Shown in pieces: positions 31,836 through 36,068 of a DNA stretch of 64,000 bases; the first letter of the stretch is position 1, and every line of letters starts with the position of its first letter. This DNA is from Marinobacter shengliensis (GTDB taxonomy: Bacteria; Pseudomonadota; Gammaproteobacteria; Pseudomonadales; Oleiphilaceae), in the NCBI RefSeq assembly GCF_003007715.1, contig NZ_PXNO01000027.1:1054001-1118000 (forward strand), given 5' to 3'. The notes under the pieces were generated by a model. That model did not search any database. It had not been told where the DNA came from and saw nothing but the letters and a program-made list of their open reading frames with translations. The position numbers and the translations under genes are program-made.

Positions 31836-32714
31836 TCAGCCTTGAAGTGAGGCCGGCAACCAACGCTTCTTGGCCTTCTCCACCAGATCCCGGGCATCGT
31901 TGTCCCAGGGGTGGAAGTTCGGGCTGTAATACTTCAGGTAGGACGGAATCAGTTTGCGGAAGACCCCCGGTTTGCCCCACATGTAGTTCAGGCCTTTGGC
32001 CCAGGATTTCAGGTTGCCCAGCTGGCCATCGGCTTTCATCAGTTGGATCAGGTGAATGCTGCTGAACAACGGAAACATCACGCTGACAAACATCATTTCC
32101 GTTACGCGAATGAACTCACTGCCGCCCACGCTTTTATAGACATCAAATGCCACGGCTTTATGTTCGGATTCCTCAATGGCGTGCCAGGCCCAGACCGGTG
32201 CGATGCGGGGGTCCATCTCTTCAAGGGCATCGTATTTCAGCAGGAATTCTTCGGCCATCAGGGCGGTAAAATGCTCTACTGCCACTGTGTGGGCCAGCTG
32301 TCTCTCCGGTGTGAAGCGCTTACGCATCCAGTTCATAAACCACTGGACTTCCCGCTCCAACCGGCTGAGGTTAACCCCCCGCTCTTCGAGGAAGCCGTTC
32401 ATCATTTTATGCTCTTTCGAGTGGTGAGCTTCCTGGCCGATGAACGCGCGAATCGCTTTTTTCAGTTCAGGGTCGGTAATCTGGTTCTGGTAGTGGCGAA
32501 CGGTATCAATGAAGAATCTCTCTCCCGGCGGGAAGCTGGCAGACAACGCCGCCAGCAAAAGGGTTTTTGCCGGGTCGTTGTCCCACCAGTACCTTGGCAG
32601 GTCTTCCGGAAACTCGAAATCCGGGCTGCGCACTTCCGGTAGAAATCCAGGGGGCGTTGCGGTCCGGTAAGCTGCATTGCTGGTTTTCTTGATCTGTGAC
32701 ACTGGCGCGTTCAT
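31836..32714 (-). CDS. Ferritin-like di-iron protein (PF10118 'metal-dependent hydrolase')
   Basis: The 292 residues match the PF10118 family, annotated only as a predicted metal-dependent hydrolase. The sequence shows a full ferritin-like di-iron set: E65 (FPPGERFFIDTVRHY), E95-x2-H98 (GQEAHHSKEH), E147 (TVAVEHFTALMAEEF) and E182-x2-H185 (WHAIEESEHKA), each on a predicted helix. This E / ExxH / E / ExxH pattern is that of di-iron oxygenases, including aldehyde-deformylating oxygenase. Hydrophobic stretches late in the protein (MMFVSVMFPLFSSIHLI) suggest membrane contact or a lipid pocket. A GGGAGAG ribosome site precedes the ATG. It lies 126 bases downstream of the acyl-ACP-reductase-like gene on the same strand. 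Confidence 0.8.
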   Translation of the reverse strand: MNAPVSQIKKTSNAAYRTATPPGFLPEVRSPDFEFPEDLPRYWWDNDPAKTLLLAALSASFPPGERFFIDTVRHYQNQITDPELKKAIRAFIGQEAHHSKEHKMMNGFLEERGVNLSRLEREVQWFMNWMRKRFTPERQLAHTVAVEHFTALMAEEFLLKYDALEEMDPRIAPVWAWHAIEESEHKAVAFDVYKSVGGSEFIRVTEMMFVSVMFPLFSSIHLIQLMKADGQLGNLKSWAKGLNYMWGKPGVFRKLIPSYLKYYSPNFHPWDNDARDLVEKAKKRWLPASLQG

Positions 32715-32840
32715 GGCAGAACTCTCCCGAAGCCATTTGTTTATTGCGTAGTCAACAGGCTACGCTGCTCCGGGAGTGGGCGGCAGGTGTTTGTGGGCCA
32801 AAATCCTCCGTTACCCGCACACTTCAGGCCTTTGCCTGGT

Positions 32841-34901
32841 TCAGGCCGGTTCGGTGGCGTGGGCGGCCAAGGTGCGCACTCTCTCGAAATCTTCCTCGGT
32901 AAACACCCCGTTAACGCCGGATACAGCCGCCAGCTCCATGCCGTGTTTCAGGCCCAGTTTGTATATTTCCCGCACCTTTTCCCATTCAATGTTCCGGCCC
33001 AGGGTGAAATTCTCGAACCTTGCCTCGAGCGCCAGCACGATGGTTTCTGCCAGGCAGGCATAGGCAATGCCCTTGGGCAGGCCGATATCTTTCATTTTCA
33101 CGATGCCAGGCAGTTTGATCTCTCCAGATTCAATCACCAGCACATCGGGCCGCTTGGCCACGTCTTCCGCCGGGATATCCAGGGGCCTGGCCACGTCTGT
33201 GATCACGCAACCGGGTTTCACCTGCATGATGTCCAGAATACGTTTACCGGCGCCGGAGGTGGCAGTGACCACCATGTCCATATCACCCAGGTCACGGTTG
33301 GTGGTGGCGGCCACATGCACGATGGCGCCCGGGGTTTCCTGTTCGATGCTTTCTTTAAGGGATAACAACTTGGCGGCCTCCGGTGCCACCAGGTAGATTT
33401 CATCCACGGCCTTGGCCAACAACCGGGCGCAGACCGAGCCGATAGCGCCAGTGGCGCCGACAACCATGGCCTTGCCGGCCATCTTCCCGCTCTTGCCAAT
33501 GCTGACACGGCCAATCCTCTTAGCCGCATCGTGGGCCGCCCAAAGTGCGCCCGAGGCGCTGTAGCTGTTGCCAGTGGTGATGGGCAGCGGTGCCCGCTTG
33601 GCCACGGTGATCCCCGCATCACCCACTACCTTGGTGAACGCCCCCAGCCCCATGATCTGGGCGCCCAGCTTTTTCGCCAGATTCGCCGCCGCCAGCAATC
33701 GGCTGTAGGTGAATTCCGGGTCGTGGGCCATGATTTCCCTGGGTGTGCCACCTACGGTGATCAGCCAGCCTTCCACCTCATCGCCGGTGGGCGACTGGAT
33801 GCCCGAAACCTTGGAGTAAACAAACGGAGGCGTGTAGGCAATGGCCTTCTCCACAAGGTTCATCACCGCCGGTGGCGACACGCTCGCTACCCAATCCAGG
33901 GGCGGGGTTTTGGTCAGGTATTGCTGAGACAACGGGTGAATCACAAAGGCAAAGCGGTTGATCCGACGGTAGCCGTTCGGGTACAGGATGCGGGGCTCTA
34001 CCCCCAACTGTTCAATCACGTCCAGGAAATCGTCCGCACCCAGTTGCTCCGGTGTGCGAGACAGAGCCGCACTGATCATCGCCTCCATCACGTTGACCCC
34101 CACCGGGCGGCCTTCCAGCCAGGGGCTGTAATCCACCACCATGGCCACGCGCCGGGAGCGGAACCAGTCCAGGGCGGATGTGGTGACCCTGGAGGTAATC
34201 ACAGTTTTGCCATCCAGTTCCTTCTCGGAAAACACTTCAAGATCACCCATAGCACCGACGATCACATGGCAGTCTTTTACCGCCTCATGCAATGAGCCGC
34301 TGATCAGCTTCTCCCCCATGCGGTAGAGGGGGCTTCGGTGCAATCGTTCTATAACCCTGACGGCGTTGGGGCTGAACATCACCGGGGCCGTGAGCTTGGT
34401 ATAGGCTTCGAGCTGGTTCAGCGAATTGAGTAGCCGGGGAACGCCAAAGTCCAGGTATGGATCGGCGAAGAACAGGTTGTCGGTATGCTCAGACAAGGCC
34501 CTGGCAATGCGGAATCCGGCCTGGCCATTGAGGAACAACACCCGGGCGTTATCGAAAAAGTGGCCCAGCTCCGTCTGGGTATGGCGAACCGCCCACTCCT
34601 GGAGGATGCCCCGCAAGCCCACCCCGGTGGTGATCGGTTTGTCTGGTACACAGGCTTCCAGCCTGGCGGTATCCGGGTGTTCAAGCTGCTCACGGCCCAC
34701 CTGGTAGTGGTAGTGGTCGTGCATCATGCTCAGGCCGATGGCATCAGCCTGCGCGCGAATCGAATCGAGAACAGCCTCGGCCCGATCGAGATTGCCATCG
34801 GTGCCCACTCGCACCACACGAAACGTATGGCCCAGAAATTCGGTTTCCAGCTCATAGTCGTACTCAGACGATCCCTGGCTGACGCTGACGACGGTTTTCA
34901 T
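32841..34901 (-). CDS. Two-part protein with C-terminal acyl-ACP-reductase-like domain
   Basis: A 686-residue protein. From about residue 340 on it aligns by eye with cyanobacterial long-chain acyl-ACP reductase (AAR): LGAFTKVVGDAGITVAKRAP and TTGNSYSASGALWAAHDAA, the NADPH fold G482-A-T-G-A-I-G488, and YACLAETIVLALEARFENFTLGRN with C616 at the place of the catalytic cysteine of AAR. Cyanobacterial AAR is only about 340 residues, so the N-terminal 340 residues (start VVSVSQGSSEYDYELETEFLG) are an extra domain I do not recognise. It would reduce a fatty acyl thioester to an aldehyde if the activity is conserved. The next gene downstream is a ferritin-like di-iron protein. Confidence 0.75.
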   Translation of the reverse strand: MKTVVSVSQGSSEYDYELETEFLGHTFRVVRVGTDGNLDRAEAVLDSIRAQADAIGLSMMHDHYHYQVGREQLEHPDTARLEACVPDKPITTGVGLRGILQEWAVRHTQTELGHFFDNARVLFLNGQAGFRIARALSEHTDNLFFADPYLDFGVPRLLNSLNQLEAYTKLTAPVMFSPNAVRVIERLHRSPLYRMGEKLISGSLHEAVKDCHVIVGAMGDLEVFSEKELDGKTVITSRVTTSALDWFRSRRVAMVVDYSPWLEGRPVGVNVMEAMISAALSRTPEQLGADDFLDVIEQLGVEPRILYPNGYRRINRFAFVIHPLSQQYLTKTPPLDWVASVSPPAVMNLVEKAIAYTPPFVYSKVSGIQSPTGDEVEGWLITVGGTPREIMAHDPEFTYSRLLAAANLAKKLGAQIMGLGAFTKVVGDAGITVAKRAPLPITTGNSYSASGALWAAHDAAKRIGRVSIGKSGKMAGKAMVVGATGAIGSVCARLLAKAVDEIYLVAPEAAKLLSLKESIEQETPGAIVHVAATTNRDLGDMDMVVTATSGAGKRILDIMQVKPGCVITDVARPLDIPAEDVAKRPDVLVIESGEIKLPGIVKMKDIGLPKGIAYACLAETIVLALEARFENFTLGRNIEWEKVREIYKLGLKHGMELAAVSGVNGVFTEEDFERVRTLAAHATEPA

Positions 34902-35048
34902 GGCGGGCTCCAGTATGATCTTGTTATACCTTAAGTCTAGAACCTGCGATGCGTTCCCGCCTTAGCCCAGATCAAATAACAGCCGGGCTTTTTGAGACTA
35001 CACTGAATACATCTCGACCACTGCAGAATCAGCAACCAAGGAGGAGCC

Positions 35049-36068
35049 ATGAGCGTTAAACAGGAGCTATTAGCCACCATTGCCGACCTGGTCCAGCCGG
35101 GCAAAGGTATTCTCGCGGCAGATGAGAGCGCCCCAACCATTGCCAAGCGGTTCAAGGCGGTGGGCGTTGAATCCACGGAAGCCACCCGGCGCGAATACCG
35201 CAGCATCATCTTTTCCACGCCAAAGCTTGGAGCGCACGTAAGCGGCGTTATTCTGTACGAGGAAACGCTGGAGCAACTGAGCCTGGACGATGTTGCCATC
35301 CCCAAGCTGCTGGCCAGCCGGGGCATTGTTCCTGGCATAAAGGTGGACCAGGGCAAAGGCCCGCTGGTAAACGCCCCGGGCGATGAAATCACCTACGGGC
35401 TGGATGGCCTTGGCACGCGCCTGGAGCACTACAAATCCATGGGCGCGCGCTTTGCCAAGTGGCGGGATGTGTTCCATATCTCCGACACCCTGCCCTCGTT
35501 CCAGGCGATCAAATCCAATGCCGAGGTGCTGGCCCGTTACGCCGCCGTATGCCAGTCCATGGGCATAGTGCCGATTGTGGAACCCGAGGTTCTGATAGAT
35601 GGCAACCACAGCATCGAACGCGCGGCAGAAGTCAGTGAAGATGTGCTGCTGGAAGTGTTCAAGGCACTGCACCGCCACCGGGTGGACCTGGAAACCATGG
35701 TGCTGAAACCCAGTATGGTGACACCGGGCAAAGAAACGGGCAAAGCCAGCCCGGAACAGGTTGCCGAAGCCACCCTGAGCGTGTTCCGGCGGGTGGTGCC
35801 GGCGGCTGTACCGGGCATATTCTTCCTGTCCGGTGGCCAAACCCCGGAGGAATCCACCGAAAACCTGAACGCCCTGAACAGCATGGGTTACCACCCCTGG
35901 GAACTCAGTTTTTCCTACGGCCGTGCCCTGCAGGAGCCAGCGCAGAAAGCCTGGGCCGGTATGCTGGACAATGCCGACAAAGCCCAGGCGGCCCTGAAAA
36001 AACGGGCCAGGCTTAATGGCCTGGCCCGTTCCGGCAGTTACTCTCCAGAGCTGGAGAGCTCTGACTAA
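35049..36068 (+). CDS. Class I fructose-bisphosphate aldolase
   Basis: The 339-residue product has GKGILAADESAPTIAKRFKAVGVESTEATRREYRSIIFSTP, IVEPEVLIDG, TMVLKPSMVTPG with the Schiff-base lysine in VLKPSM, and VPGIFFLSGGQTPEE, all diagnostic of the eukaryotic-type class I aldolase found in many bacteria. It cleaves fructose 1,6-bisphosphate in glycolysis and runs the reverse reaction in gluconeogenesis. GGAGG precedes the ATG. The final codons include a palindrome (GGCCAGGC-ttaat-GGCCTGGCC) that may form a hairpin inside the coding end. It converges with the following gene at a 6-base gap. Confidence 0.92.
   Translation: MSVKQELLATIADLVQPGKGILAADESAPTIAKRFKAVGVESTEATRREYRSIIFSTPKLGAHVSGVILYEETLEQLSLDDVAIPKLLASRGIVPGIKVDQGKGPLVNAPGDEITYGLDGLGTRLEHYKSMGARFAKWRDVFHISDTLPSFQAIKSNAEVLARYAAVCQSMGIVPIVEPEVLIDGNHSIERAAEVSEDVLLEVFKALHRHRVDLETMVLKPSMVTPGKETGKASPEQVAEATLSVFRRVVPAAVPGIFFLSGGQTPEESTENLNALNSMGYHPWELSFSYGRALQEPAQKAWAGMLDNADKAQAALKKRARLNGLARSGSYSPELESSD

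Follow-up and report, generated by a model that had tools for sequence, protein, structure and literature searches.

Analysis of a 64,000-nucleotide stretch of the Marinobacter shengliensis genome (contig NZ_PXNO01000027.1, positions 1,054,001 to 1,118,000; hereafter the window) revealed a 686-residue protein (32841..34901, minus strand) which, judging from its sequence, is likely an NAD(P)H-dependent thioester reductase of the superfamily of cyanobacterial acyl-ACP reductase (AAR) and PigE, fused to an additional N-terminal half. Its modelled fold, its cofactor loop, a conserved cysteine and its conservation over the full length support this assignment, and the enzyme probably acts in fatty or storage-lipid metabolism rather than in alkane formation with an aldehyde-deformylating oxygenase (ADO). 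The fused AAR-like form is new, the AAR/PigE kind of reductase being already known; a literature search, with subscription journals mostly outside reach, found no paper on this fused family, whose members are named “dehydrogenase”, “predicted amino acid dehydrogenase” or “serine carboxypeptidase” in databases; one of the papers listed contains the term PF10118. If the assignment is true, a large family of vaguely named proteins would consist of fused thioester reductases, candidate makers of fatty aldehydes in wax-ester-producing and hydrocarbon-associated bacteria. A tempting but unsupported annotation of the locus as an alkane pathway is also removed.

The fused AAR-like protein

The C-terminal module comprises residues 317-686 (32844..33953, minus strand). 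The first-pass annotation had likened it to AAR on account of its cofactor loop, TTGN segment and catalytic cysteine, and this likeness is borne out by matches beyond chance. Among NCBIfam profiles, NF053554 (PigE) covers residues 316-679 with 168 bits (E 3.2e-49), a match that also points to a COG5322-type reductase domain, and the AAR equivalog TIGR04058 matches the C-terminal region with 74.7 bits (E 8.1e-21). The PDB sequence matches include PigE (4ppm, E 1e-24) and AAR (6jzq, E 4e-12), improving to 5.9e-31 and 2e-15, respectively, with the family profile as query. In the predicted structure, the match to the AAR fold spans residues 316-674. The GATGAIG loop (codons 482-488; 33438..33458, minus strand) has a function known from the AAR literature, and C616 (33054..33056, minus strand) aligns with AAR C294 in a HMMER alignment to the PDB chain, the position being counted by hand. 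Over 80 sequences, including the window protein and consisting mostly of close relatives (53-93% identity), T442-N445 (TTGN), G482-G485, I487, G488 and the expected catalytic cysteine C616 are invariant (80/80), residue 486 being A in 72 sequences and S in 8.

The 686-residue protein has in common with cyanobacterial AAR (TIGR04058; PDB 6jzq/6jzu) the fold, the GATG-x-IG loop and the position of the catalytic cysteine, but differs from it by its length (686 residues instead of the ~340 expected of a stand-alone AAR), by an extra N-terminal half also carried by its full-length relatives, by its TIGR04058 score (74.7 bits versus a curated cut-off of 449.7 bits) and by the lack of ADO in the 101 family genomes searched. 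The domains of PigE, TamH and KecF (NF053554; PDB 4ppm) are the best sequence match of those tested and share the cysteine; thioester reduction has been reported for PigE. These domains are fused to class III aminotransferases, whereas none was found in the 686-residue protein by a Pfam search at E up to 1, and the PigE loop aligns as VGYPGSI against GATGAIG. A weak similarity (E 3e-4) was also detected with the carmabin TAD domain (PDB 9e4s/9e50/9e56), located in a protein of non-ribosomal peptide synthetase type according to its molecule name.

The N-terminal half (residues 1-316; 33954..34901, minus strand) is a conserved alpha/beta region for which neither Pfam (E-values up to 1) nor the PDB sequences (E-values up to 10) gave a match. 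It is mostly modelled at high confidence and is retained in the full-length relatives, at 53-93% identity. This half could represent an eroded second AAR module: alignment of the two halves by hhalign gave an E-value of 0.055 with superposed PxTTG motifs, and a BLASTP comparison of one half with the other gave 0.003 in a one-sequence search. Four of 100 column-permuted hhalign alignments scored equally high, and among 37 other families five matched the C-terminal half as strongly and none the N-terminal half. The order of predicted secondary structures appears similar by eye in both halves, as may be the case with any Rossmann-like domain. An internal duplication of the AAR module was thus rejected as an established feature, the sequence test having failed its permutation and other-family controls. 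A broader proposal, which we regard as tentative and rather doubtful, is that the N-terminal half would be a degenerate second AAR copy acting, for the active half, as a built-in partner or as a surface where the carrier docks, the whole protein making fatty aldehydes for storage lipids in Marinobacter and its relatives as a non-cyanobacterial branch of AAR without ADO. Such a copy would have kept the PxTTG motif and lost the glycine-rich loop and the cysteine, in a proteobacterial family of fused reductases.

Distribution and metabolic context

Of the 7999 candidates in a protein search, 6444 were scored as relatives, and the best 120 were listed; the best matches belong to M. nauticus (90% identity). 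In a draw of 101 genomes of the family, 70 were matched, reduced to 66 genomes and 73 genes after exclusion of four with PigE-type partial matches only. The AAR-like gene is rare outside this family, since it was found in 2 of 274 genomes drawn from the class, one of them being the M. shengliensis genome itself, and in 5 of 299 from the phylum, two of these being partial matches only. Conservation over the full length spans Marinobacter to betaproteobacterial metagenome-assembled genomes. The loci analysed by name, which are the best 80 of 529 and thus nearest relatives, a choice that favours adjacency, include 55 from Marinobacter and others from Halospina, Halovibrio, Ketobacter, Hahella, Haliea and Rhodoferax. 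The genomes G567, G576, G562, G559, G586, G581 and G564 each carry two AAR-like paralogues, with ~63-65% and 54-56% identity to the window protein, and the gene is split into two open reading frames (ORFs) of 217 and 503 codons in one metagenome-assembled genome (L101, 10001-12056).

The storage-lipid context is suggested by the co-occurrence with WS/DGAT genes. Within the genus, 45 of 62 genomes have the AAR-like gene and all 45 have at least four WS/DGAT genes; in the seven genomes with two or fewer, neither the AAR-like gene nor a match to PF10118 was found, PF10118 being the family of the neighbouring gene discussed below. The association with the WS/DGAT count is significant over the 62 genomes, shared ancestry being uncorrected (Mann-Whitney p 7e-8, Fisher p 4e-5). 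The joint absence in these seven genomes (G594, G629, G634, G639, G642, G647 and G653) would fit the loss of a set of storage-lipid genes. If the enzyme works as AAR does, C616 would become acylated by acyl-ACP or acyl-CoA, and NAD(P)H held in the GATGAIG loop would donate the hydride that frees the aldehyde, which could then be reduced to an alcohol or used in other aldehyde-consuming steps, in a fatty or storage-lipid setting. We infer the reductive direction, the cofactor, the acyl carrier and the chain length.

Several observations weigh against this interpretation. The TIGR04058 cut-off is not reached, and three genomes (G628, G632, G649) have the AAR-like gene with no PF10118 match at 1e-10. 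The AAR-like gene lies near a listed WS/DGAT gene in one genome only, at 8.6 kb. Of the genomes of the genus, 17 are without the AAR-like gene, and ten of these keep 3-5 WS/DGAT genes; the gene is therefore not needed for wax-ester synthesis as such, and the link is loose. The M. shengliensis genome also encodes two long PF07993 proteins (open frames of 521 and 672 residues) that could make the alcohols. These are probably the alcohol-forming reductases already described in Marinobacter, which would leave the AAR-like enzyme as one more acyl reductase. With C12-CoA, no product was reported for the related PtTamH domain (PMC9594044), so that acyl-CoA need not be a substrate.

A reductase dedicated to a special acyl chain, as are PigE, TamH and KecF in secondary metabolism, instead of bulk fatty acyl groups, would agree with the sequence being closer to PigE than to AAR and with the biosynthetic nature of these domains. 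It is nonetheless unlikely, considering that no biosynthetic cluster was seen, the non-Marinobacter loci having in common only small lineage-specific sets of neighbours (≤6 loci each), and that the protein is devoid of an aminotransferase.

The enzyme could also work in the reverse direction in vivo, as an acylating aldehyde dehydrogenase that forms acyl-CoA out of the fatty aldehydes arising when alkanes or alcohols are oxidised. The AAR reaction in reverse employs the same cysteine and cofactor site, and several host genera, among which record titles name Marinobacter, Ketobacter and Hahella, are hydrocarbon degraders. Thioester reduction is, on the other hand, the direction of the characterised relatives whose direction is known, and the neighbours, annotated in part, revealed no conserved gene for the oxidation of alkanes, which makes this alternative improbable; a thioester reductase of fatty or storage-lipid metabolism remains our preferred interpretation.

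Relation to the neighbouring PF10118 gene

A gene encoding a 292-residue protein (31836..32714, minus strand) follows on the same strand after a gap of 126 bases (32715-32840); the positions and lengths of both ORFs, the gap and the residues named in the first-pass annotation agree with the ORF list and the sequence. The protein is a full-length member of PF10118 (304.4 bits versus a gathering cut-off of 33.2, E 9e-91), and its description as ferritin-like with a complete set of six di-iron ligands is upheld by conservation: over 228 PF10118 proteins, i.e. the window protein and 227 among the matches listed, E65, E182 and H185 are present in all and E95, H98 and E147 in 227. It is modelled as a di-iron fold whose nearest folds are R2, R2lox and AurF/CmlI, all weak matches, so that the “Metal_hydrol” label, already regarded as vague, looks unfounded in the light of the model. 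The protein did not match PF11266 (ADO) at E up to 1, and ADO is not among the structural matches listed, which does not count against a likeness to ADO. The ligand set is common to ADO (PF11266) and PF10118 but generic to ferritin-like di-iron proteins.

The two genes had been proposed as an AAR/ADO-type pair, in which the reductase would supply a fatty aldehyde for the di-iron protein to convert through alkane formation, oxidation or detoxification, a proposal to be given up if the genes lacked neighbourhood association across genomes. Such an arrangement is compatible with the shared strand, the short gap without terminator-like site on that strand and the predicted di-iron fold, and adjacency is kept in all six tips of the clade of the window (support 0.997); L067 and L068 again have the two genes at a distance of ~0.7 kb, and including these two loci breaks the single clade formed by the six close-pair species. 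Across genomes the association is absent. With PF10118 counted among the matches listed, 5 of the 66 genomes carrying the AAR-like gene have the two genes no more than 10 kb apart; the same holds for 8 of the best 80 named loci, all from Marinobacter, and for none of the 25 non-Marinobacter loci, several of which are incomplete. A close PF10118 orthologue (≥74% identity) occurs in 18 genomes, 12 of the 66 with the AAR-like gene and 6 of the 35 without (Fisher p = 1). In synteny over 18 chosen loci, each gene occurs without the other at the same locus: the order is htpG-katG-dusC-(fba)-PF10118-gnat in L133, L137 and L138, whose genomes lack the AAR-like gene altogether, and fba-AAR-like-gnat without PF10118 between in L055 and L058. 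The PF10118 gene also has its own upstream element, and a search for PF11266 that did detect the Synechococcus positive control gave no match in any of the 101 family genomes. The AAR/ADO pair was thus rejected on neighbourhood, co-occurrence and absence of PF11266, and we regard it as very improbable. The adjacency appears incidental, or reflects no more than a recent association particular to the lineage, and a joint role on aldehydes is possible in the few species with adjacent genes. The PF10118 protein would be a di-iron oxygenase in its own right, a candidate for acting on aliphatic substrates, standing beside the reductase through lineage-specific gene order; if true, the “metal-dependent hydrolase” name would be better replaced by that of di-iron oxygenase candidate.

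Upstream signals and other gene contexts

A sequence-signal scan of the minus strand of the gap found neither a terminator-like nor a sigma-70-like site. A TTGGCC element (32782..32801, minus strand) lies upstream of the PF10118 gene, and TTGGCC with further positions is kept both where an AAR-like gene lies upstream (seven loci) and where none does (three loci). The window has a single occurrence of the pattern, none being expected; with one mismatch allowed, 4 of the 6 other genomes tested have a related element at PF10118, the single matches in the remaining two lying elsewhere. No TTGGCC-type element was seen by eye upstream of the AAR-like gene (34902-35048). The element lies within 250 bases upstream of 10 of the 18 PF10118 genes checked and is missing from the three paralogues and five unlinked orthologues, which counts against the reading that PF10118 has a promoter of its own. 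The intergenic RNA (32700-32845, minus strand) folds better than shuffled sequences (z -2.54; 2 of 200 shuffles as good), and the predicted hairpin would place the Shine-Dalgarno (ribosome-binding) region of PF10118 in a stem.

An element, TTGGCCAC-N3-TGA-YAAG followed by TTGTCC, precedes PF10118 in L134, L135, L136, L067 and L068 and suggests a dedicated regulator. An AraC-type gene adjoins PF10118 in L134, L135, L139 and L140 according to clustering, with a Pfam check in L135 only. At L129 (G000:C21:86907-91241), the genes of a PF10118 paralogue, a wax-ester synthase (WS/DGAT) and a regulator of AraC type lie together, and PF10118 and WS/DGAT genes lie ≤6 kb apart in 38 genomes of the family draw. 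On the other side of the AAR-like gene, the divergent class I fructose-bisphosphate aldolase gene fba (35049..36068, plus strand) was recognised by synteny and by PF00274 on the syntenic gene of L133. On Mycolicibacterium plasmids (L153, 7965-15582; L155, 5989-12639), PF10118 is found with genes for SDR, flavin oxidoreductases and alpha/beta hydrolase, and one of its neighbours in L155 is annotated as a second ferritin-like protein.
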